Below, piece by piece: positions 1,174 to 12,160 of a stretch of DNA of 64,000 nt (the stretch's first letter is position 1; each line of letters opens with the position of its first letter). Under the pieces are notes generated by a model. That model worked only from the letters and a program-made list of their open reading frames with translations. It searched no databases and was not told the origin of the DNA. A program made the position numbers and the translations under genes. This DNA comes from Desulfobacteraceae bacterium (GTDB lineage: Bacteria; Desulfobacterota; Desulfobacteria; Desulfobacterales; Desulfosarcinaceae). The stretch spans positions 1-64,000 of the forward strand of contig JABDIN010000080.1 of assembly GCA_013003715.1 (NCBI GenBank), given 5' to 3'.

Positions 1174-3624
1174 ATGAGCCGGAATCCTGATCGTGCCGGT
1201 GCTGTCAGCGGTTCAATCTTAGTCGTTGATGATGATAAAGCGCTCTGTCATTTGTACCGGGAACAACTTGAGCGCCAAGGTTTTGACGTTGTCACCGCAT
1301 TGAGCTATCAGACGGCATTAGAATGCCTGAAGACACATGAGTTCGAAACCATCCTCAGCGATATTATGATTGGCGATCACAGTGGCATCGATCTTCTTAA
1401 ATACTGTGTATCCGCCGTACCGGATGTTCCCGTCCTCTTGATCACAGGCGTTCCATCTCTAGAAACGGCGGTGGAAGCCCTTAAGCTTGGTGCATACGAT
1501 TATCTGGCCAAACCAGTGGTGAAAAACGAACTGGTCCAATCCATACGGCGGGCAGTTGAAGTTTATAAACTCAGGAAGGAAAAAAAACATGTAGAATCGG
1601 AGAATGAAAAATACCGCAATCAACTGGAAAAACTGGTGACCGTCAGAACCAAAAAGCTCAAGGAACAAAATGAGTTTCTTGAAAATGTTGTCGAGTCGCT
1701 AACCCATCCATTTTATGTCATCGATGTTAAAAGCCGTCAGGTGGTGATGGCCAACTCCGCTGCCGAATTTGGCGAATTACACCTGAACAATACGTGCCAT
1801 TTACTTACACATAAGCGACACACACCTTGCAGCGACACCGGTCACCAGTGCCCGCTGGATACGGTCGTCAGGACCGGCAAACCGGCCGTGGTGGATCACA
1901 TGCATATCGATTCACAAGGTGGCAAGCAGCATGCGGAAATCCACGGCTACCCCATACTGGACAAGTATGGAAACGTAGTCCAGATGATCGAATACGCACT
2001 GGATGTAACGGATCGTAAAAAGGCGGAAAATGAACTGGTTCGACGTGGCAAGATTCTGGAGTGCGCCCGATATGCCGCAGAAACCTGCCTGAAAACGAGC
2101 AATTGGGAAGAAATAATCCATCAGGTATTAAAACGCATCGGCAAAACCATTGATGTCAGCCGTGTCTATATCATTGAAAATGCCGCCGCAACGACTGACA
2201 AGAGCATCGCACCGCGACATGAGTGGACCAATACGGGAATAATTCCCAAAAGTACTGTAATGGGTGAAAAGGATGCTGTGTCATATGCGGCGGGATTCAA
2301 AAAATGGTGTGCGTCTTTAAAAAGGGGAGCGCTGGTGCAAGGATCACAGGATGACTTTCACGGCACCGAACGTTCCATTCTGATATCCCACAAAACACTG
2401 TCCACCGTCATGGTGGGTATTTTTGTCAAGCATACACACTGGGGGTGTATCGGCTTCGATGAGTGCCGGACCGAACGGCAATGGTCACCGGCGGAAATCA
2501 ATGCACTCAAGGTAATTGCCCAAACACTTGGTGCCGCCATTTATCACGATGTTCAGAACAAGGAGCGCAGCCGTCTCGCCACCGCCATAAAGCAGTCGGC
2601 TGACAGCATCATCATCATGAACCCGGAGGGAGTGGTCGAATATGTAAATCCGGCATATGAGTCGATCACCGGCTACCATCGAGAGGCTGTACTGGGCAGC
2701 TCTTCACCACTGTTGGATAAGAGCGGGGGCAGCCACGAGAACCATGATGAAATATGGCATCAACTGCAACAAGGACACGTGTGGCACGGGTGTCTCAACA
2801 ATAAAAAAAAGGATGGTACATTATTAAAAGAGGAAGCGACCATTTCTCCGGTAAAGGATGACAAGGGCAACATCATCAATTATGTGGCCATCCAGAGGGA
2901 TATCACCGAACGCCAGCAGCTGGAATCAATCGCCGAGGCGGCCAACCTGATGGATAATCTGGGATACATCTTTGCCGGTATCCGTCACGAAATCGGCAAT
3001 CCCTTGAACTCCATCAAAATGGCCTTGACCGTGTTATATAAAAATATAAAGATTTATCCCCTGCATACCACCACTGAATTTCTGGAACGTACCCTCGGTG
3101 AAGTGGCCCGGATGGAATATCTCCTGAAGGCATTCAAAAATTTCAGCCTTTATGAAAGTCCGGAAATTCAAACGGTCAATATCCGGGATTTCATCACCAA
3201 ATTCATTGCGCTGGTACAGGATGATTTCAATCGCGCCGGCATCGAATTGACCACGAGAATGCCACGCCATCACCGGTATTGTTATGGCGATCCCCGTATG
3301 CTTCATCAGGTGTTGCTGAATCTTTACACGAATGCAGCAGATGCATTGGAAAAATCAGAGAATCCCGGGATCGTCACCGAAATTAGGGACGCCGGCGGAT
3401 ATATCACCATCGATGTAACGGACAACGGATGCGGTATTTCAAAATCGGAAAAAGCGCGTATATTCACCCCTTTTTACACCACCAAAGCCCGCGGAACCGG
3501 ATTGGGATTGGTGATTGTGAAAAAAATGCTGATTAAAATGAATGCCGGAATTGAGATGATTTCAGAAAAAAATACCGGCACAACCGTTTCCATCAAACTG
3601 CCGGAGGCGATGGCCGATGAATGA
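1174..3624 (+). CDS. REC-PAS-GAF-PAS sensor histidine kinase
   Basis: A soluble multidomain kinase with no membrane segment. From the N-terminus: a receiver domain (acidic pocket VVDDDK, phosphoacceptor Asp near 65 in SDIM, Lys in AKPV), a short coiled coil (about 135-165), a PAS domain (about 170-285), a GAF-like domain (about 300-455), a second PAS (about 470-585), and a kinase core with His near 607 (RHEIGNPLNS), an N box (LYTNAADAL) and ATP-lid motifs DNGCGIS and GTGLGL. The N-terminal receiver makes it a phosphorelay intermediate that probably takes signals from another kinase. The ATG at 1174 is preferred over 1168 because AAAGGA at 1161 sits 7 nt from it but only 1 nt from 1168. The stop overlaps the next gene by 8 nt, which points to a dedicated kinase-regulator pair. 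Confidence 0.9.
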   Translation: MSRNPDRAGAVSGSILVVDDDKALCHLYREQLERQGFDVVTALSYQTALECLKTHEFETILSDIMIGDHSGIDLLKYCVSAVPDVPVLLITGVPSLETAVEALKLGAYDYLAKPVVKNELVQSIRRAVEVYKLRKEKKHVESENEKYRNQLEKLVTVRTKKLKEQNEFLENVVESLTHPFYVIDVKSRQVVMANSAAEFGELHLNNTCHLLTHKRHTPCSDTGHQCPLDTVVRTGKPAVVDHMHIDSQGGKQHAEIHGYPILDKYGNVVQMIEYALDVTDRKKAENELVRRGKILECARYAAETCLKTSNWEEIIHQVLKRIGKTIDVSRVYIIENAAATTDKSIAPRHEWTNTGIIPKSTVMGEKDAVSYAAGFKKWCASLKRGALVQGSQDDFHGTERSILISHKTLSTVMVGIFVKHTHWGCIGFDECRTERQWSPAEINALKVIAQTLGAAIYHDVQNKERSRLATAIKQSADSIIIMNPEGVVEYVNPAYESITGYHREAVLGSSSPLLDKSGGSHENHDEIWHQLQQGHVWHGCLNNKKKDGTLLKEEATISPVKDDKGNIINYVAIQRDITERQQLESIAEAANLMDNLGYIFAGIRHEIGNPLNSIKMALTVLYKNIKIYPLHTTTEFLERTLGEVARMEYLLKAFKNFSLYESPEIQTVNIRDFITKFIALVQDDFNRAGIELTTRMPRHHRYCYGDPRMLHQVLLNLYTNAADALEKSENPGIVTEIRDAGGYITIDVTDNGCGISKSEKARIFTPFYTTKARGTGLGLVIVKKMLIKMNAGIEMISEKNTGTTVSIKLPEAMADE

Positions 3625-5011
3625 GTCAATAACGAAACGTACACTTCTCATTATCGATGATGACCAACTGATGTGCGACACCATCATTCAGGGACTGGAC
3701 CTTCCTGGACTGAACATCATGAAAGCCCACAAAGGAAACAAGGGGGTCGACCTCTGCGCGGAGTGCCAGGTGGATGTAGTGTTACTGGATCAGAAATTAC
3801 CGGACGGGGACGGTGTTGACCTCTGTTCTCAGATCTTATCTTACAACGATCAATGCAAGATCATTTTCATTACCGCCTATCCAAGTTTCGAAAACGCGGT
3901 GGAGGCAATAAAGGCGGGTGCCCATGATTATGTCTCAAAACCGTTTGAACTTGAAGAAATAAAATTGTCGGTGCAAAAGGCGGTCCGTGCCATCGATCTG
4001 GAACGTGTGGCGCATTTTCAACAATACAATACCGACCTGGAAAAAAAGGGAAACGTCCTGGTGGGTGCCGGTGGTTCTCTCAACAATGTCTGGCAATTGA
4101 TAAATCTGGCTGCGGAAAACCGTGCCCCGGTGCTCATCACCGGGGAAACCGGAGTCGGCAAAGGTGTGGTGGCCAAACTCATCCATGCCAAAAGTTGTGA
4201 TGTATCTTCTTCGTTTATCAGCGTTAATTGTGCCGCCCTGCCTGACAATCTGATCGAATCCGAATTATTCGGGTATGAAAAAGGTGCCTTTACCGGCGCG
4301 GAAGGTGCAAAAAAAGGATTGTTCGAACTGGCTGAAGGCGGCAGCTTATTTTTAGACGAGCTGGGCGAGTTGCCCATACACCTCCAGTCCAAACTATTGG
4401 GTGTTCTGGATGACAGGAAACTGCGAAGAATTGGCGGCAGGCAGACCCGACATGTGAATACCCGGGTGATCGCCGCCACGAACGTGGATCTGGACAATTC
4501 TATAAAAACCGGCAAATTCCGAAATGATTTATACTACCGGCTCAGTGTCATTCTCATCCATATCCCCCCCCTGCAGTCACGTATCGCTGACATACCCCAG
4601 CTATGCGGGCATTTCATTCACAAAATCGCACCCGACCATGATATTTCTCTCGCAAATGATGAAATGGAAAAACTCAAACAATACGACTGGCCGGGCAATG
4701 TGCGGGAACTGAGAAATATTATCGAACGATCCATTATTATCCGGAAATCCCCGGAAATATTCCCGTCAAAGCTGCTGAATACCAACCACAGTGCCGCAGA
4801 ATACAATACGCTCCCGCCTTTGGGTGAATCCAATGATCTGATTGCATTGCGCGAACTTGAAGAGAGGCACATAAAATTCACTTTAAATCGCCTGAACCAA
4901 AACCACACACAGGCCGCCCGCAGTCTCGGTATTTCCCGATCAACCCTGCTGCGCAAAATGAAATCGTTTGAATCACCCAACCCATCGGAAACAAATACCG
5001 CGTCAAAATAG
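3617..5011 (+). CDS. Sigma54-dependent response regulator, NtrC family
   Basis: A 464-residue activator with the classic three parts. The receiver (about 8-125) has its Asp near 58 in LLDQKLPDG. The AAA+ domain (about 145-375) shows Walker A GETGVGKG, the sigma54-contacting loop GAFTGA, Walker B GSLFLDE and an arginine-finger region. A C-terminal Fis-type helix-turn-helix follows (about 415-455, AARSLGISRSTLLRKM). It should drive transcription from -24/-12 promoters when phosphorylated by the overlapping upstream kinase. A 13-bp near-perfect dyad lies 7 bp after the stop codon and is a candidate binding site. No -24/-12 element was found by eye in front of the next gene. Confidence 0.93.
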   Translation: MNESITKRTLLIIDDDQLMCDTIIQGLDLPGLNIMKAHKGNKGVDLCAECQVDVVLLDQKLPDGDGVDLCSQILSYNDQCKIIFITAYPSFENAVEAIKAGAHDYVSKPFELEEIKLSVQKAVRAIDLERVAHFQQYNTDLEKKGNVLVGAGGSLNNVWQLINLAAENRAPVLITGETGVGKGVVAKLIHAKSCDVSSSFISVNCAALPDNLIESELFGYEKGAFTGAEGAKKGLFELAEGGSLFLDELGELPIHLQSKLLGVLDDRKLRRIGGRQTRHVNTRVIAATNVDLDNSIKTGKFRNDLYYRLSVILIHIPPLQSRIADIPQLCGHFIHKIAPDHDISLANDEMEKLKQYDWPGNVRELRNIIERSIIIRKSPEIFPSKLLNTNHSAAEYNTLPPLGESNDLIALRELEERHIKFTLNRLNQNHTQAARSLGISRSTLLRKMKSFESPNPSETNTASK

Positions 5012-5017
5012 AGCACT

Positions 5018-5046
5018 GTTCCAAAATAGGGCGCCTATTTTAGAAC
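5018..5046. promoter_or_regulatory. Inverted repeat GTTCYAAAATAGG, candidate activator site
   Basis: The arms at 5018-5030 and 5034-5046 are reverse complements with one mismatch in 13, around a 3-nt centre. No T run follows, so it is not a standard terminator. It lies between the sigma54 activator gene and the REC-roadblock gene, 114 bp before the latter's start, a distance typical of enhancer-like sites for NtrC-family proteins. That it is such a site is inference. Confidence 0.45.
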
Positions 5047-5159
5047 GGCCCGTGACGACTTTCACATATAAAACCGTAATTACTTGTTTTTATAGATTTT
5101 TATATAATGTATAAAACGGCATGATCATTGCTAAAGCCATTGGTAAGGAGATAACCGAC

Positions 5160-6359
5160 ATGGACAGGGTTCTGATTGTTGATGATGAAAAATCTTTGTT
5201 GCTCAGCCTCGAGGCCGGCCTGACAGACTATCATGACCGGTTTACGCTTTTCACCGCCGAAAATGGTAAGGATGCGCTGGAAATCCTCGAGAGCAAGCGT
5301 ATTGACCTGGTGGTCACTGATTTGAGAATGCCGGTGATGGATGGCTTTGAACTTCTCGCCAAACTTGCCTCGGATTTTCCATCCATACCCGCCATGGTTA
5401 TGACCGCATACGCAACACCGGAATCACAGCGAAAAATCCAGGATTTGAATAATATCCGCATCATTGAAAAACCGGTGGATTTTGATGAACTCACCCAGGC
5501 CATCCTCGAAAATCTCGAGATTATTAACCGGGGGGGATCGATCACCGGCATTTCGCTTCCCAACTTCATGGACCTGATTGAAAAAGAGGAAAAAACCTGC
5601 CTGCTGGAAATCCTGAAGAACACTAAATCCATTGGCCTCTTGTTCTTTAACAAAGGGCAGATATGGGACGCCGTGTGTGGTAAAACCAATGGTGAAGCCG
5701 CTGTATTCAACCTCCTTGCTAAAGAGGATGTTCAGATCAGTTTCAGAAATCTGCCAAAAAAAAAGATTAAGAGAAGGATAAACGCCAATCTGATATCCCT
5801 CCTACTGGAAAGTGCCAGACGCATCGACGAAGAAAATGATACCGAAACCCAAGAGGCAATATCGGATCAAAAGGACGCCAAAAATAATGAAGTAAACACC
5901 GGGGGTGATGAGGATCCGGGCGAAGCTGAACCGGTCGTACCCCTGTCAACTAAAGGAGAGGAAAAAATGTCACAAATTGAAGAAGTATTGGAAAAGTTTC
6001 GCGACGTCGAAGGTTTTCAGGCTGTGGGTGTATTTTCACCCCAGGGTGAAATGGTATCCCAGGTGAATGCATCCGGTTTGGAAATCGCCGAATTGGGTGC
6101 ATTGGCGAATGATGTGCTGTTAAAGGCACAAAAAGCGACCGAGATCATGGGTGTCGGGCGTGGACAACTGGTTCATGTGGAAGCGCCAAAAGCTCACCTA
6201 ATCGCGCGCTGCTTGAACGAAGCCACCGATTTTGCGGCCAATAGTGAAGGCAGGGCCCACATACACATGGTGCTCGCCATATCCAAAGAAGGCAATCTGG
6301 CCATGGGAAAAATGAAATTGGCGAGCATCATTCAGGAACTTGCCCAGTACTTCAGATAA
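5160..6359 (+). CDS. Receiver-DUF4388-roadblock/LC7 protein
   Basis: A 399-residue signalling protein. The N-terminal receiver (about 1-120) has its phosphoacceptor Asp near 54 (TDLRMP) and Lys in EKPV. The middle (about 130-220) matches DUF4388 (PATAN-like), a domain often fused to receivers. An acidic linker (about 225-265) leads to a C-terminal roadblock/LC7 domain of about 130 residues. Roadblock proteins of the MglB type act on small Ras-like GTPases, but no GTPase gene is in the window. The start at 5160 is chosen over 5121 because AAGGAG at 5145 is 9 nt upstream and the receiver begins there. A second strong ribosome site inside the gene, before Met at 5967, could make the roadblock domain separately. 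Confidence 0.85.
   Translation: MDRVLIVDDEKSLLLSLEAGLTDYHDRFTLFTAENGKDALEILESKRIDLVVTDLRMPVMDGFELLAKLASDFPSIPAMVMTAYATPESQRKIQDLNNIRIIEKPVDFDELTQAILENLEIINRGGSITGISLPNFMDLIEKEEKTCLLEILKNTKSIGLLFFNKGQIWDAVCGKTNGEAAVFNLLAKEDVQISFRNLPKKKIKRRINANLISLLLESARRIDEENDTETQEAISDQKDAKNNEVNTGGDEDPGEAEPVVPLSTKGEEKMSQIEEVLEKFRDVEGFQAVGVFSPQGEMVSQVNASGLEIAELGALANDVLLKAQKATEIMGVGRGQLVHVEAPKAHLIARCLNEATDFAANSEGRAHIHMVLAISKEGNLAMGKMKLASIIQELAQYFR
5953..5969 (+). promoter_or_regulatory. Internal ribosome binding site and in-frame ATG
   Basis: AAAGGAGAGG starting at 5952 is followed by an ATG at 5967, in frame with the surrounding gene and exactly at the start of the roadblock domain (MSQIEEVLEK). The spacing suits efficient initiation. 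It would yield a free protein of 130 residues alongside the full-length receiver fusion. This may be the leftover start of a once separate roadblock gene or a working internal start. Confidence 0.55.
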
Positions 6360-6378
6360 CACTGATCCATTGATTTTA

Positions 6379-6411
6379 CCGGCGGCAGTGCGATTTTGGA
6401 ACTGCCGCCGG
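6379..6411 (+). terminator. Perfect 11-bp intercistronic hairpin
   Basis: CCGGCGGCAGT at 6379-6389 pairs exactly with 6401-6411 across an 11-nt loop. Only a weak T stretch follows (CGATTTGTC). It sits between the roadblock and PHP genes and may be a weak terminator or an mRNA-stabilising stem that lowers expression of the downstream genes. Confidence 0.5.
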
Positions 6412-6424
6412 CGATTTGTCCACT

Positions 6425-7114
6425 ATGTCCACAATGACCGACGCAAGTCACAAGTTGATCCAACCCAAACCATATGATCCAGAATATTGTATCGATCTGC
6501 ATGTGCACACCAACCGGTATTCACCGTGTGCGGAATCACTCGATCCGGCGATGATCCACCGTCAAATGACGGCAACCCGCATCCAGGGCGTGGTGATCAC
6601 TGAGCATGACCGGCTCTGGTCACGTTCGGAAATTCATAAACTCAATAAAAATCTGGTCAATAGGCGTATCTATCGCGGTGTTGAAATCACCAGCATCAAT
6701 GGCCATTTTATCGTTATCGGTCTGGAAAACCTGGAAGGAATCAAACCCGGTATATCGATCTTCGAACTCCTGAATGTAACCCGACAAAAAAATGCCGCAG
6801 TGATCCTGGCGCACCACCACCTGAATTATTCCCAGACATCAGCACCGATTGATATGAAGCGCGCACCAAAAGACATCGACGCCATAGAGGTCGCCAGTAC
6901 AGCGACAACCGGCGAAAACTGTTTTGAAGCGGAAAAAATCGCCGGCATCCACGGGTGGGCAAAGGTTGCCGGCAGCGATGCCCATACGCTGGAAAAAGTG
7001 GGTTCATATTGTACGGGTTTTCGACAACTGCCGGACACTGAACTGGAACTTGCCGCGATGATCAAAGCGGGCCTGTGCATACCACATAACGACCACAGAC
7101 GATACCATGGGTGA
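6425..7114 (+). CDS. PHP-domain phosphoesterase
   Basis: A small PHP protein of about 229 residues. The metal-binding motifs of the family are all present in order: DLHVHT near the N-terminus, TEHD, the triple-His segment AHHH, and GSDAH near the C-terminus. PHP proteins hydrolyse phosphoester bonds using a cluster of metal ions; histidinol phosphatase and nucleotide or RNA phosphoesterases are relatives, but nothing here fixes the substrate. The start is uncertain: TTG 6416, ATG 6425 and ATG 6434 are all in frame and none has a clear Shine-Dalgarno site. It lies 3 bp before the ATPase gene, so the two are probably co-translated. Confidence 0.8.
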   Translation: MSTMTDASHKLIQPKPYDPEYCIDLHVHTNRYSPCAESLDPAMIHRQMTATRIQGVVITEHDRLWSRSEIHKLNKNLVNRRIYRGVEITSINGHFIVIGLENLEGIKPGISIFELLNVTRQKNAAVILAHHHLNYSQTSAPIDMKRAPKDIDAIEVASTATTGENCFEAEKIAGIHGWAKVAGSDAHTLEKVGSYCTGFRQLPDTELELAAMIKAGLCIPHNDHRRYHG

Positions 7115-7117
7115 TCC

Positions 7118-8089
7118 GTGTTATTATTTACCGATATATACACCGTGAAAAAAGCAATTGATTTCACGGACATCATATCGCGCGACACCATTGTGCCTGC
7201 AGAATGCCCACCGATGGAAAACTCACCCTACCGAGCCGGTTATGACTGGTTATTCCGGTACGAACGTAAACTGGCACGGTTTCTCGATCCATGGCTCGGA
7301 GAGTTCCGTCACGAACTCATCGGTGTCAACGGCATTCTCTGTGAAGCCTTATCCAACGCTTTCTGTCATGGTCATCGAAAAGACCCCACCCTGGCTATTC
7401 ACCTCAATGTATACCTGGGAACAAAGGGCTTGGTGTTGGAGGTCATCGATACCGGCAAGGGATTCAATGTTCAGCGGGTGGTGGATGCATGCGAGAAGGG
7501 GAAAGCTTATTACCATGTGGCCGGCAACGGCCTGCGATCGATGATGGCATCGGATAATTTTGCGGTATTTTTCAATCACACCGGAACCGCTTGTCACATC
7601 GTCAGGCTGCACAATGCGGACTACGGCTGTATAAAAAGAATCTCGCACCAAAGACCATTAAATGTCAGCGGCATCCATACAAGCGCCAATGGTAATCATA
7701 CCCGTAACACAGGAGAGGGTTCGATTACTGCCGACGGTAATCCCCCCCTATCCTGGGCCAATGCCGGTATCCTCGCCGGGATAAACGGCCGTGTAATTTC
7801 ATTCTACGGGATTCGGCCGAAAGCGGCCAACCGAATCGCAGGGTTTTGTATCGAATTGGTCCAACAAGCCATTGCGCTGTCCAGAACCCTGGAAACCGGC
7901 GATCCTGAACAACTCTGGATAGAAACCGATTCGCAATACATGCTCGTGTCCTACCCGGCAGACACGGACCGGATAATCATTGCCCTGCTGGATGAAAATG
8001 CAAATCCGGTCCATGCCCGATTTCATCTTCCGGAAATAATTGCTTTTCTAAACGACAATCATCCCCATCATACCGCACCCGGCAATTAA
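7118..8089 (+). CDS. GHKL ATPase, RsbW/anti-sigma-like
   Basis: A 323-residue protein whose first half is a HATPase_c fold. Visible motifs are the N box EALSNAFCHGH, G1 motif DTGKGF and G2 motif GNGLRSM. There is no dimerisation domain, His box or sensor, which resembles serine-kinase anti-sigma factors of the RsbW class more than a histidine kinase. The second half (about 190-320) is not recognised. The start is a GTG next to the previous stop with no strong ribosome site, so translation may depend on coupling; the first ATG lies near 7214, inside the conserved part. Its neighbours suggest it belongs to the same signalling circuit. An STAS-type partner is not seen. Confidence 0.7.
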   Translation: MLLFTDIYTVKKAIDFTDIISRDTIVPAECPPMENSPYRAGYDWLFRYERKLARFLDPWLGEFRHELIGVNGILCEALSNAFCHGHRKDPTLAIHLNVYLGTKGLVLEVIDTGKGFNVQRVVDACEKGKAYYHVAGNGLRSMMASDNFAVFFNHTGTACHIVRLHNADYGCIKRISHQRPLNVSGIHTSANGNHTRNTGEGSITADGNPPLSWANAGILAGINGRVISFYGIRPKAANRIAGFCIELVQQAIALSRTLETGDPEQLWIETDSQYMLVSYPADTDRIIIALLDENANPVHARFHLPEIIAFLNDNHPHHTAPGN

Positions 8090-8249
8090 AAAATCACGTT
8101 GACAGCCAATTGTGTTACTCGGCCGACCATGGTATTTATCCTCATTGAAATTCATGCAAGGAACATGATCCGGTACTATATTCAGGAATACGATTACCGG
8201 GATCCCCAAAATGTCAATTTACCGGACTTTGGATCAGAGGCGCTTGAAA

Positions 8250-10871
8250 ATGTCCAATTATCAGGTTGCAGTGAATAGCGTTGTTCCATGGAAACGACGG
8301 TGGATCTTTTGGATCGCCATATACGTTCTGCTATTGGGACTTTCCCATACGGTAAGAATGGCGGCACCAGACACTCCCCGGCCCGCCGATGGACAACACT
8401 CCATCGCCCTGCAATCTTATGGAGATCAAGAGACAGGAGACTCACCTGTTCACATACGCTACATTGATACTCAACCCGGGGCTTCCGAAAACGAGACGAT
8501 CATTTTGCTATTGCACGGCAGCCCCATGGCGGCAGTGACCGTATTCCCGGAACTGATTCAGCGGTTGTCAACCAACGCCCGCGTCATAGCACCTGATTTG
8601 CCTGGATTCGGCAGATCCACCCGAACCATTCCCGACTATTCCATTCAAGCCCATGCTGAGTATATGAAACGCTTCCTGGAGCGCATAGGTGTTGCCAGAT
8701 ATCATGCCGTTGCCTACAGCATGGGCAGCGGTGTCGCCCTGAATCTGTATGAATTGCATCCGGAAAAAATGCAATCGCTTACCATGTTGTCCGCCATCGG
8801 TGTTCAGGAATTCGAATTGCTTGGAGATTACCATCTCAATCATGCCCTGCATGGCGCACAGCTGCTGTTTTTCCGATTTATCACCGATTGGATTCCGCAT
8901 TTTGGTATCCTTGACCAAATACCGCTGAACCTCGCCTACGCCAAAAATTTCTACCACTCCGACCAGCGGCCTCTCAGATCCATTCTCAGTGGTTTTTCAC
9001 CGGCCACATTGATTATCCATAGCAATGAAGACTACTTTGTTCCCATGGAAGCGGCAAATGAGCATTTTCGTATCGTCCCCCAGGGTGAACTGAAAATTTA
9101 CCCTGGCGGCCATCTCATGATCCTGTCCGAAGGCGAATCTCTTGCTGAGGACATCCATGATTTCATAACCCGTGTGGGGCAAGGAGAGGCCAAAACCCGT
9201 GCGGAAGCCGATACGGATCGGGCCATCGCATCGTCCGTACCGTTTTCAAGCATTCGGGTGCCGGAAGTCCGGGGGACGACCCTGGCGGCGATCATTGTTC
9301 TCATCGCACTGGCCACACTCATCAGCGAAGATGCCACCTGTATCGGGGCCGGACTTCTGACAGCGCGGGGGTTTATCGGTTTTTTACCAGCCGTGTTCGG
9401 CTGCTTTGCCGGTATTGTGATCGGAGATGTTCTTTTATTCTTAGCCGGGAGGTTTTTTGGCAAACCGGCCCTCGGCAGGGCCCCGCTGAAGTGGTTTTTC
9501 AAAAAAGAAGATGTCGAACGGGCATTCCACTGGTTTTCAGCACACGGTCCCGGGATCATTCTTGTCTCGCGGTTTCTGCCCGGAAGCCGTTTACCCACGT
9601 ACTTTGCCGCCGGAATGCTGGGAATGAAGATTCGCACTTTTTTTCTATACTTTTGCATGGCCGGGATAGTCTGGACTCCACTGCTTGTCGGATTGGCAAT
9701 GCTTTTGGGGGATCAGCTGTATGCGCATTATGGATATGTCCAAAAATACGGTATATGGACATTTGCCGGCATTTTCATTGTGTTGATGATTTTCATTCGC
9801 ATCCTGATTCCCCTGTTCACCCATCGCGGCAGACGCCTGTTGTTGTCCACCTGGCGCCGGAAAGTGAGCTATGAATTCTGGCCGCCCTACATTTTTTACC
9901 TGCCGGTTGTCGGCTATATACTATATCTCACTTTAAAACACGGGAATCCTACACTGTTCACTGCCGCCAACCCGTCCATACCCAATGGCAGCGGTTTTCT
10001 GGGGGAATCAAAAAGCCGGATCCTCGACGGGCTGAATGACTCATCAGAATATCTGCCACACTATGATATTGTCAAAAGGCAATTACCGTTTCACGAAAAA
10101 ATCACCAGAGTGGAATCATTCCTCACGAACAATGGGTCTCATTATCCCATTGTGCTGAAGCCCGATATCGGACAGCGTGGCAAAGGAGTTGCCATCGCCA
10201 GATCAATCACGGATGTCAACGACTTTTTCGCGACATCTGAACATGACACCATTGTACAGGAATATGTGGATGGACATGAGTACGGCGTTTTTTACTACCG
10301 GTATCCAGGCTCAACAAAAGGAAAAATTCTTTCGATTACCGACAAAAAACTCCTAACCGTTGAGGGTGATGGCCATCTGTCCCTGGAACAATTGATCCTC
10401 AAGCATGAACGTGCCTTGTGCATGGCGCCGACACACTTTACCAAACACCGGCATCAACTCTACCGGATAATTGACGCCGGAGAGATCGTTCCCCTGGTGG
10501 AGTTGGGCACCCACAGCCTTGGGGCCCTGTTTTTGGATGGAAGCCATGTTCTGACCCCGAAACTGGAAGCAAAAATTGATGGCATCAGCAAATCCTTCAA
10601 GGGATTCTATTTCGGCCGGTACGACATTCGAACACCGGTAGTGGAAGATTTTAAGGCCGGCAGGAATTTTAAAATCCTGGAACTCAATGGTGTAACCGCG
10701 GAAGCCACTCATATATACGATCCCAAGAACAGCATATTTGCGGCATATCAAATGTTATTCAAGCAATGGCGGATCGCCTTTGACATCGGGGCCATAAATG
10801 CCCTGAACGGTGCCAAACCACTATCATTCTTTCAGTTTTTGAAGCTGATAATGCATAAGGACATACCATGA
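8250..10871 (+). CDS. Alpha/beta hydrolase-DedA-ATP-grasp fusion protein
   Basis: An unusual membrane protein of about 873 residues. Numbering from an upstream ATG at 8211: a signal-anchor helix (about 28-48); an alpha/beta hydrolase (about 80-325) with Ser170 in YSMGSG, Asp274 in NEDYF and His301 in GGHLM forming a complete triad; a DedA/VTT (SNARE-associated) membrane domain (about 355-545) with the SEDA acidic motif and SRFLPGSR; then an ATP-grasp domain (about 600-870) with the nucleotide loop LKPDIGQRGKG and a metal-binding LELNG. DedA-type proteins move lipids across membranes and ATP-grasp enzymes join a carboxylate to an amine or thiol, so the fusion could process a lipid-linked substrate. 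ATG 8250 is preferred because AGAGG lies 9 nt upstream. The next gene overlaps by 4 nt. Confidence 0.85.
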   Translation: MSNYQVAVNSVVPWKRRWIFWIAIYVLLLGLSHTVRMAAPDTPRPADGQHSIALQSYGDQETGDSPVHIRYIDTQPGASENETIILLLHGSPMAAVTVFPELIQRLSTNARVIAPDLPGFGRSTRTIPDYSIQAHAEYMKRFLERIGVARYHAVAYSMGSGVALNLYELHPEKMQSLTMLSAIGVQEFELLGDYHLNHALHGAQLLFFRFITDWIPHFGILDQIPLNLAYAKNFYHSDQRPLRSILSGFSPATLIIHSNEDYFVPMEAANEHFRIVPQGELKIYPGGHLMILSEGESLAEDIHDFITRVGQGEAKTRAEADTDRAIASSVPFSSIRVPEVRGTTLAAIIVLIALATLISEDATCIGAGLLTARGFIGFLPAVFGCFAGIVIGDVLLFLAGRFFGKPALGRAPLKWFFKKEDVERAFHWFSAHGPGIILVSRFLPGSRLPTYFAAGMLGMKIRTFFLYFCMAGIVWTPLLVGLAMLLGDQLYAHYGYVQKYGIWTFAGIFIVLMIFIRILIPLFTHRGRRLLLSTWRRKVSYEFWPPYIFYLPVVGYILYLTLKHGNPTLFTAANPSIPNGSGFLGESKSRILDGLNDSSEYLPHYDIVKRQLPFHEKITRVESFLTNNGSHYPIVLKPDIGQRGKGVAIARSITDVNDFFATSEHDTIVQEYVDGHEYGVFYYRYPGSTKGKILSITDKKLLTVEGDGHLSLEQLILKHERALCMAPTHFTKHRHQLYRIIDAGEIVPLVELGTHSLGALFLDGSHVLTPKLEAKIDGISKSFKGFYFGRYDIRTPVVEDFKAGRNFKILELNGVTAEATHIYDPKNSIFAAYQMLFKQWRIAFDIGAINALNGAKPLSFFQFLKLIMHKDIP

Positions 10872-12160
10872 AAAATGACATGACAACGGAACCCATCAAA
10901 AACACTGACATCTCCTCACCAGGCATTTTGCCCCAACGGCAACGTGCAAAGATACGAAACGACTGGCTGAAGGAACGGCTCGACACACTCCTCCCGGAAC
11001 TGATGCACCTGGCAAAAATAGATATGTGGGTTGTCATTGCGCGCGAATACAATGAAGATCCGGTGATCATGAGTTTGCTGCCGGAGCCGAACATGAATGC
11101 CCGGCGCCGGACAATGCTGGTTTTCGCACTTACGGAAACAGGTGTAGAGTGCCTGCACATCGGAAAACAAAAGCTCAAGGGATATTATAAAAATGTCTGG
11201 GAAGAGACATCGGAAAAACAATTCGCTTGTCTTCAACGTATCATACGCGAGAAAAATCCGAAAACCGTCGGTATTAACGTCTCACATATTTTTCCCTTCG
11301 GTGATGGCCTGTCCCATAGCCTTTATCTCCGCCTGATGGAAGAATTAGGCCCGTTCAGCCGCCGGATCAAAAGCGCTGAAAAACTCTGTGTGGCCTGGCT
11401 GGAAACACGGATCAAGCCGGAGTTGAGTGTCTACCCCGATCTGGTCAACATCAACCATGCCATCATCAGGGAGGCCTTCAGCAGAAAAGTGATTTCACCG
11501 GGAGTCACCACGGTCGATGATGTGGCGTGGTGGATGCGGCAGAAAATAACGGATCTGGGTCTTCGCGCCTGGTTTCAACCCACCGTCGATCTGCAGGCCC
11601 GTGACGTGACATTCTCGGACGAAAACCCACGACGAACGATTTTGCCGGGCGACATGCTCCATTGTGATATTGGTTTCTCATACCTGGGGTTGAATACCGA
11701 CAATCAGCAACTCGCCTATGTATTGAAGGACGGCGAAACAGATGCGCCTGAGGGATTGAAACAGGCGCTCACAGCGGGGAACCAGCTTCAGGACATACTG
11801 GCGGGTACGATGAAAACAGGCATGACGGGGAATCAGATTTTAAAAGAAGCCCGGCAAAATGCAAAGGCGGCCGGCTTGGATCCCAGCATCTACACCCATC
11901 CCCTGGGATATCACGGACATGGTGCCGGTCCCGTTATCGGCCTGTATGACAATCAGGAAGGCATCAGTGGAAATGGAGACTATCCTTTAAATGAAGATAC
12001 GGTATACGCCATCGAATTGAATGTGAAGCGAAATATTCCCGAATGGGGTGATCAGCCGGTGGCCATCTATCTTGAAGAAGATGCCAAATGGAGCAATGGT
12101 GAGCTGACGTTTCTGGGTGGGCGGCAGAAGGCTTTGCACCTTATTGGTCCAAATGCATAG
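10868..12160 (+). CDS. M24 family metallopeptidase (Xaa-Pro peptidase-like)
   Basis: A 430-residue protein with the pita-bread fold of creatinase/aminopeptidase P. Likely metal ligands are visible in CDIGF, in NTDNQQ, in the His segment GYHGHG, in AIELNV and in the late YLEEDA. The N-terminal half (about 20-190) fits the creatinase N-domain. There is no signal peptide, so it should be cytoplasmic. It starts with ATGA overlapping the stop of the hydrolase-DedA-ATP-grasp gene, which implies translational coupling and a shared pathway. One inference is cleavage of a peptide or amide bond made or handled by the ATP-grasp domain. The last gene of the + strand cluster, it is followed by a hairpin terminator. 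Confidence 0.85.
   Translation: MKNDMTTEPIKNTDISSPGILPQRQRAKIRNDWLKERLDTLLPELMHLAKIDMWVVIAREYNEDPVIMSLLPEPNMNARRRTMLVFALTETGVECLHIGKQKLKGYYKNVWEETSEKQFACLQRIIREKNPKTVGINVSHIFPFGDGLSHSLYLRLMEELGPFSRRIKSAEKLCVAWLETRIKPELSVYPDLVNINHAIIREAFSRKVISPGVTTVDDVAWWMRQKITDLGLRAWFQPTVDLQARDVTFSDENPRRTILPGDMLHCDIGFSYLGLNTDNQQLAYVLKDGETDAPEGLKQALTAGNQLQDILAGTMKTGMTGNQILKEARQNAKAAGLDPSIYTHPLGYHGHGAGPVIGLYDNQEGISGNGDYPLNEDTVYAIELNVKRNIPEWGDQPVAIYLEEDAKWSNGELTFLGGRQKALHLIGPNA

Follow-up and report, generated by a model that had tools for sequence, protein, structure and literature searches.

The gene at 8211-10871 of the window, by which we mean the whole 64,000-nucleotide stretch analysed here, encodes an alpha/beta hydrolase, a VTT/DedA membrane domain and an ATP-grasp ligase in one chain. 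Relatives of this fusion recur in fused and split forms, and they cluster and co-occur with aminolipid acyltransferases. We give roughly even odds (about 0.5) to the reading that this is an enzyme of aminolipid head groups in which their synthesis, translocation and turnover are combined. The features of the locus are listed below; residue numbers count from 8211, and 13 is to be subtracted for a protein that starts at 8250.

8211-10871, + strand: gene of the hydrolase-VTT-ATP-grasp fusion, likely start 8250 (uninterrupted 886-codon reading frame, Pfam, full-length model)
8304-8360, + strand: N-terminal membrane helix, residues 32-50, with positive charges ahead of it (model, hydropathy)
8382-9188, + strand: alpha/beta hydrolase domain, residues 58-326 (Pfam, alignment, fold match)
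8718-8720, 9030-9032 and 9111-9113, + strand: hydrolase triad Ser170, Asp274 and His301 (alignment)
9258-9818, + strand: VTT/DedA membrane domain, residues 350-536, with Glu373, Asp374 and Asp406 (Pfam, alignment, model)
9567-9590, + strand: SRFLPGSR motif, residues 453-460, with invariant Arg454 and Arg460 (alignment)
9900-10013, + strand: moderately hydrophobic predicted helix and conserved NPxI...GESK segment, ahead of the ATP-grasp core (alignment, models)
10038-10868, + strand: ATP-grasp ligase domain (alignments, domain model, fold matches)
10155-10187, + strand: nucleotide loop LKPDxGxRGxG (alignment)
10623-10688, + strand: Asp805 to Asn826, likely metal-binding residues (alignment)
10868-12160, + strand: gene of an M24 peptidase, overlapping the fusion gene by ATGA

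The in-frame ATG at 8250 (Met14) has AGAGG nine bases on its 5' side. Because of this better ribosome-binding site, we prefer 8250 as the start, and a protein of 873 residues is likelier than the product of the 886-codon frame. The full-length model had a mean pLDDT of 91.6 and a pTM of 0.75, with values below 50 in residues 1-24 only. In a Pfam domain search, the hydrolase and VTT domains scored above their cut-offs and the ATP-grasp models below theirs; the 10 Pfam families listed at E 1 for this protein include no MprF-type family. A sequence-only reading had proposed three domains in one polypeptide, and this is confirmed by the uninterrupted frame, the Pfam matches, the models and the retained catalytic residues. 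Structure prediction of the window copy left none of the domains without its key elements.

The Abhydrolase_1 model matched residues 97-198 (E 1.8e-24). The window copy possesses the alpha/beta hydrolase fold and, as had been claimed, a complete Ser-Asp-His triad, with Ser170, Asp274 and His301 all present. Across 45 fusions, of which 43 are distinct, Ser occupied the nucleophile position in 36 and Gly in 7, and 2 had a gap there; Asp274 was kept in 41 of the 45 and His301 in 40, with gaps in the other five. The hydrolase was less constant than the VTT and ligase residues across the fusions. Gly or a gap at the nucleophile position, together with VTT-ligase forms that have no hydrolase, suggest that cleavage is likely an accessory step and not an obligatory one.

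VTT matched residues 381-495 with an E value of 2.5e-16 and a score of 60.7 bits (cut-off, 33.9). We aligned 51 rows, comprising 34 fusions and 17 two-domain forms (50 distinct, as L002 and L027 are the same gene). Asp374, Asp406, Arg454 and Arg460 were present in 51/51 rows and Glu373 in 50/51. The Pfam score, the membrane acids and the two arginines place the domain in the DedA/VTT family, and the earlier identification of a DedA domain with an SRFLPGSR motif holds. A sequence search for solved structures gave no meaningful relative of the VTT segment.

The distribution of charges was used to predict the topology. The window protein carries seven Lys/Arg residues ahead of its first helix and two in the 46 residues that follow; the loop at residues 413-480 has 11, and the C-terminal portion 42. 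A hydropathy test detected a helix ahead of the hydrolase in 33 of the 45 fusions and none in 12. Further, the excess of Lys/Arg lay before the N-terminal helix in 28 fusions and after it in 2. This distribution predicts that the hydrolase is outside and the ATP-grasp domain inside, so that the protein could work on both faces of the membrane.

The best Pfam ATP-grasp match of the window protein had an E value of 0.02 and, like all the others, was below its cut-off; in all three family members scanned, the domain stayed below Pfam's ATP-grasp cut-offs. With no Pfam ATP-grasp cut-off reached, the domain was assigned to no named family (Ddl, RimK or CphA), and none of the best 25 of 48 NCBIfam families reached its cut-off. 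Lys650 in the nucleotide loop, Arg803, Asp805, Glu824 and Asn826 were invariant in 51/51 rows (50 distinct), and an alignment of seven relatives also backed the ATP-grasp identity. By analogy with ATP-grasp enzymes in general, Asp805 to Asn826 are likely to bind metal. Because fold searches with the whole model gave hydrolase matches only, among the matches listed, the ligase domain was modelled alone (mean pLDDT 92.8). The best fold match of this model was cyanophycin synthetase (Z 17.5, rmsd 5.0, 273 aligned residues), and further matches were bifunctional glutathione synthetase (Z 16.0), ArgX/LysX (14.7/14.5) and RimK (14.3). Ligases of these types couple amino acids to carboxylates. The fold matches and the residues Lys650, Asp805, Glu824 and Asn826 place the domain in the ATP-grasp superfamily, and the invariant residues and the domain model bear out the intact nucleotide loop that had been read from the sequence. 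The predicted helix ahead of the core has a hydropathy of 1.23, which is under the helix threshold used.

To survey the homologues, we scanned with the ATP-grasp alignment and obtained at least 593 pattern matches, of which at least 423 were confirmed; we retained the best 80 loci. Together with plasmid loci and further genome loci, these gave 131 ATP-grasp rows, from which a quick tree was built. Two pairs of rows are identical (L002 and L027, L060 and L146), so that 129 rows are distinct and the counts over the 131 rows and the 45 fusions contain copies. The rows comprised 45 triple fusions (43 distinct), 30 VTT-ATP-grasp forms (two of which, L066 and L085, start at the edge of the locus), 54 ATP-grasp domains alone and 2 TANGO2-ATP-grasp forms. 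The architecture changed at the fewest 25 times on the quick tree, and the well-supported branches force only five changes for the fusion label. Going by record titles, fusions were found in eight phyla, represented by Desulfobacterales, Calditrichota, KSB1, Bacteroidetes/Balneolaceae, Acidobacteria, Planctomycetota, Gemmatimonadetes and the verrucomicrobial genus Cerasicoccus. Homologues as separate adjacent genes were also found: VTT and ligase are encoded by overlapping genes in Salinivibrio, and ligase, hydrolase and VTT by separate neighbouring genes in Paracoccus denitrificans PD1222. Azospirillum carries a two-domain gene of the VTT-ATP-grasp form. A tblastn search of plasmids detected split forms and no place that covered 80% of the query. 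The recurrent fusions and the two-domain and split forms among the homologues rule out an annotation error as the source of the triple fusion. Two fusions, L040 and L047, have lost the hydrolase triad, and their VTT and ATP-grasp residues are still invariant.

Among 60 genomes (that of the window and its relatives), a complete fusion was found in two, the window genome and one whose copy is the L027 gene (G031). When 198 genomes of the window's own phylum were searched at E 1e-3, 26 had a match, and all except the window genome were weak (best 2.3e-8). These weak matches look like generic ATP-grasp hits and were rejected as family members.

The ATGA overlap with the M24 peptidase gene is real, at 10868, and the sequence-only reading had taken it to point to amide chemistry. 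However, a search of the first 135 loci and the window at E 1e-3 detected an M24 homologue only in the window and in its two re-fetched copies (L001 and L106). The overlap as a pointer to chemistry is therefore not supported, and M24 was rejected as a functional partner, being seen only at the window locus among the loci searched. The M24 'map' gene near the Paracoccus genes did not match the window M24 protein, and a sequence search gave no solved relative of the latter. On the other side of the fusion gene, at 3617-8089, there is a run of regulators: a sigma-54 response regulator, a receiver-DUF4388 protein, a PHP-associated protein and a histidine-kinase-ATPase protein with a sub-threshold roadblock match.

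The neighbours of the ATP-grasp gene were clustered and representatives were named; genes were picked mechanically, which can miss some. The families found most frequently in the best 80 loci were TANGO2-like (34 loci), DinB (31), OlsB/OlsF-like (28), OlsA-like (17) and DoxX (14), followed by Rieske/ferric-reductase-like proteins (12), one unnamed family (9) and YHS (5). At least one of the TANGO2-like, DinB, OlsB/OlsF, OlsA and DoxX families was present in 61 of the 80 loci and none in 19, several of which lie on short contigs. Enzymes of the OlsB/OlsA and OlsF types belong to ornithine- or glycine-type aminolipids. Representatives matched models of OlsF (4.9e-128), OlsB (1.4e-38) and OlsA (2e-37), all below the NCBIfam equivalog cut-offs, and these names therefore do not fix the amino acid of the lipid. 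The two distinct nearest relatives of the window protein on the tree are the L027 fusion (identical to L002) and L026, a VTT-ligase form without hydrolase. In both, an OlsF-like gene is adjacent and divergent, and that of L026 is cut by the end of the contig. On a Vibrio plasmid (L023, 9313-15052), the genes for VTT, ATP-grasp, DinB, TANGO2, YHS, DoxX and an OlsF-like protein form one same-strand run; the gene table of this record holds three features in all.

Cys2 and the Arg-Asp-Glu of the NRDE motif were kept in 20/20 aligned TANGO2-like proteins, and four histidines in 20/20 aligned DinB proteins. Judging from these residues, both are probably active enzymes. A TANGO2 match in the window genome was set aside: this short protein is encoded outside the window and in no such cluster. 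Other arrangements were also observed. In L032 (2947-4925), L042 and L093, a Rieske-ferric-reductase-like protein is followed by another family near OlsB-like genes, and the tested member of that family had no Pfam match. In L155, L157, L165, L169, L192 and L193, a compact Bacteroidota run holds YHS, DoxX, DinB, TANGO2 and ATP-grasp together with a small membrane protein; TANGO2 and ATP-grasp are fused in L192 and L193.

We used PF13444, the acyltransferase domain of OlsB/OlsF, as the marker for co-occurrence. It was found in 46 of 50 genomes holding ATP-grasp loci (L026-L075, the first 50 of the 80 as listed), compared with 1 of 14 named controls. We also compared genomes within three phyla, whose labels follow the record titles of the samples' centre genomes. 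In Acidobacteriota, the ligase was present in 19 of 149 genomes and PF13444 in 36; PF13444 accompanied the ligase in 18/19 genomes and occurred in 18/130 without it, and the two lay on the same contig in 15 of those 18, with gaps of 1.1-4.0 kb. In Verrucomicrobiota (145 genomes, 15 with the ligase and 84 with PF13444), the frequencies were 14/15 and 70/130, and the ligase match of the one exception is in three pieces. In Bacteroidota (394 genomes, 71 with the ligase and 156 with PF13444), they were 54/71 and 102/323. One-sided Fisher tests gave p values of 2e-12, 0.002 and 6e-12 for Acidobacteriota, Verrucomicrobiota and Bacteroidota, respectively, which overstate independence, since members of the same phylum share ancestry and the samples include genomes in which loci had already been detected. 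All 30 Bacteroidota genomes with fusion-length frames, which were counted as fusions by length alone, possessed PF13444, with match starts 3.0-4.3 kb apart. OlsF-like matches occurred in 14 of the 60 genomes of the window and its relatives, including both fusion carriers. The window genome holds an OlsB/OlsF-type partner, an OlsF-like gene with PF13444 and PF19576 on another contig (C42).

The sequence-only reading had one lipid-linked substrate cleaved, translocated and ligated. Of this, the link to a lipid gained support, because the relatives cluster and co-occur with aminolipid acyltransferases, while obligatory cleavage was weakened. The substrate is probably a lipid of the acyl amino-acid type and not a polyprenyl-linked one. 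On the aminolipid reading, it would be an acyloxyacyl amino-acid lipid whose alpha-carboxylate is free, produced by enzymes of the OlsB/OlsA or OlsF type on the cytoplasmic membrane's inner face. VTT would anchor the ATP-grasp domain to this membrane on the cytoplasmic side, and the ligase would activate the carboxylate as an acyl phosphate and couple it to a small amine (an amino acid or a taurine-like compound), so that the head group has two residues. VTT would then move the lipid to the outer leaflet. There, a periplasmic hydrolase that retains its triad may control the product by cleaving either an acyl ester or the residue that was added. This model would explain the fusion of ligase and VTT, the predicted outward position of the hydrolase and the acyltransferase partners. 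Against it, TANGO2 and DinB, the commonest neighbours, are left without a step, and the OlsF-like gene of the window genome is not on the contig of the fusion.

These two neighbours are the starting point of an alternative that we consider unlikely, in which the conserved unit is a TANGO2-DinB-ATP-grasp pathway that makes an acyl-peptide or another small amphiphile, exported by VTT or a LysE-like protein, with OlsB/OlsF as one acyl source. The occurrence of TANGO2-ATP-grasp fusions agrees with such a pathway, as do the short-frame ligases of Bacteroidota: PF13444 was found in 24 of their 41 genomes and was missing in 17, and in the 40 regions examined of these 41, DinB was present in 29, TANGO2 in 27, YHS in 22, DoxX in 17, all four in 16 and an OlsB/OlsF gene in none. 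A small membrane protein is often encoded next after the ligase in these regions, and of four tested, two matched LysE and two matched nothing in Pfam. These regions without OlsB/OlsF, and the ligase genomes that lack PF13444, indicate that the ligases, taken as one family, do not serve the aminolipid route exclusively; those with short frames may act on a different acyl substrate or depend on an OlsF gene at another place in the genome. However, the alternative is opposed by the PF13444 found near every fusion-length Bacteroidota frame and within 4.0 kb of the ligase in 15 of the 19 Acidobacteriota genomes.

A reversed reaction on the same lipid appears quite unlikely. Here, the carboxylate activated by the ATP-grasp domain would be that of a free amino acid (or small acid), and an ornithine-type lipid would accept it through its side-chain amine. 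An ornithine-like lipid in which this amine is free is suggested by the partners of OlsB/OlsF type, and the co-occurrence data do not fix the direction of ligation. In cyanophycin synthetase, RimK and LysX, which have the nearest folds, the carboxylate comes from the bulky partner, however, and glycine-type lipids have no side-chain amine of that kind. A polyprenyl or cell-wall-linked route, with VTT as an undecaprenyl-phosphate flippase and the ligase as a D-Ala-D-Ala-type enzyme, is very improbable: some members of the DedA superfamily are described as flipping undecaprenyl phosphate and some plasmid homologues are annotated as D-alanine--D-alanine ligase, but the scores are far below the NCBIfam cut-offs (59.1 against 250 bits for the UptA equivalog, 32 against 500 for the one Ddl-like model listed) and none of the ten named neighbour families is a cell-wall family.

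We return to the aminolipid reading. Cerilipin is an ornithine-taurine lipid. In the literature on such lipids, glycine-serine and ornithine-taurine head groups are listed as two-residue aminolipids (PMC12493201, PMC10191378), the flavolipin route is called unknown (PMC10191378) and a Ser ligase gene 'remains to be identified' after a Pfam-domain search (PMC12746155). An aminolipid review contains the term ATP-grasp once, in its reference list. We tentatively propose that the missing ligase class for dipeptide-type aminolipids (such as those with glycine-serine or ornithine-taurine head groups) may be a self-contained unit of ATP-grasp ligase, VTT translocator and periplasmic editing hydrolase, which would have arisen separately from tRNA-dependent MprF and is present in many phyla. 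The fusion family is put forward as a widespread candidate for the enzyme that adds the second residue of two-residue aminolipids. A DedA survey names fusions with rhodanese, PAP2 and oxidoreductase, and its main text, as available, contains neither 'ATP-grasp' nor 'hydrolase' (PMC10127716). In the open-licence literature, we found no paper on an architecture of DedA/VTT (SNARE-associated), ATP-grasp and hydrolase. The parts are all of known kinds; their combination and the tie to aminolipids appear to be new.

The VTT domain is similar to the DedA/VTT flippases (UptA, YqjA) in its Pfam score, conserved acids and two arginines, but is under the UptA cut-off. Cyanophycin synthetase, RimK and LysX are the best-matching solved folds for the ligase; however, the ATP-grasp core alone matches, and the NPxI...GESK segment is conserved in the fusion's family. 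The aminolipid synthases OlsBA, OlsF and GlsBA make a one-residue lipid and are partners of the fusion by neighbourhood and co-occurrence. In MprF, a synthase aminoacylates phosphatidylglycerol inside and a flippase moves the product, according to a source that also cites, by title, a periplasmic aminoacyl-phosphatidylglycerol hydrolase of Pseudomonas (PMC11980842). The fusion would resemble MprF in joining head-group modification at the inner face and translocation in one chain (PMC11980842). In contrast, MprF uses charged tRNA, another flippase domain and phosphatidylglycerol, whereas the fusion combines ATP-grasp and VTT, probably acts on an aminolipid and has the hydrolase fused to it. Our best model, consistent with the predicted topology and the partners, is that the fusion follows an MprF-like logic with unrelated parts. 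Such a family would suggest a second natural solution to the building, flipping and editing of membrane lipid head groups.
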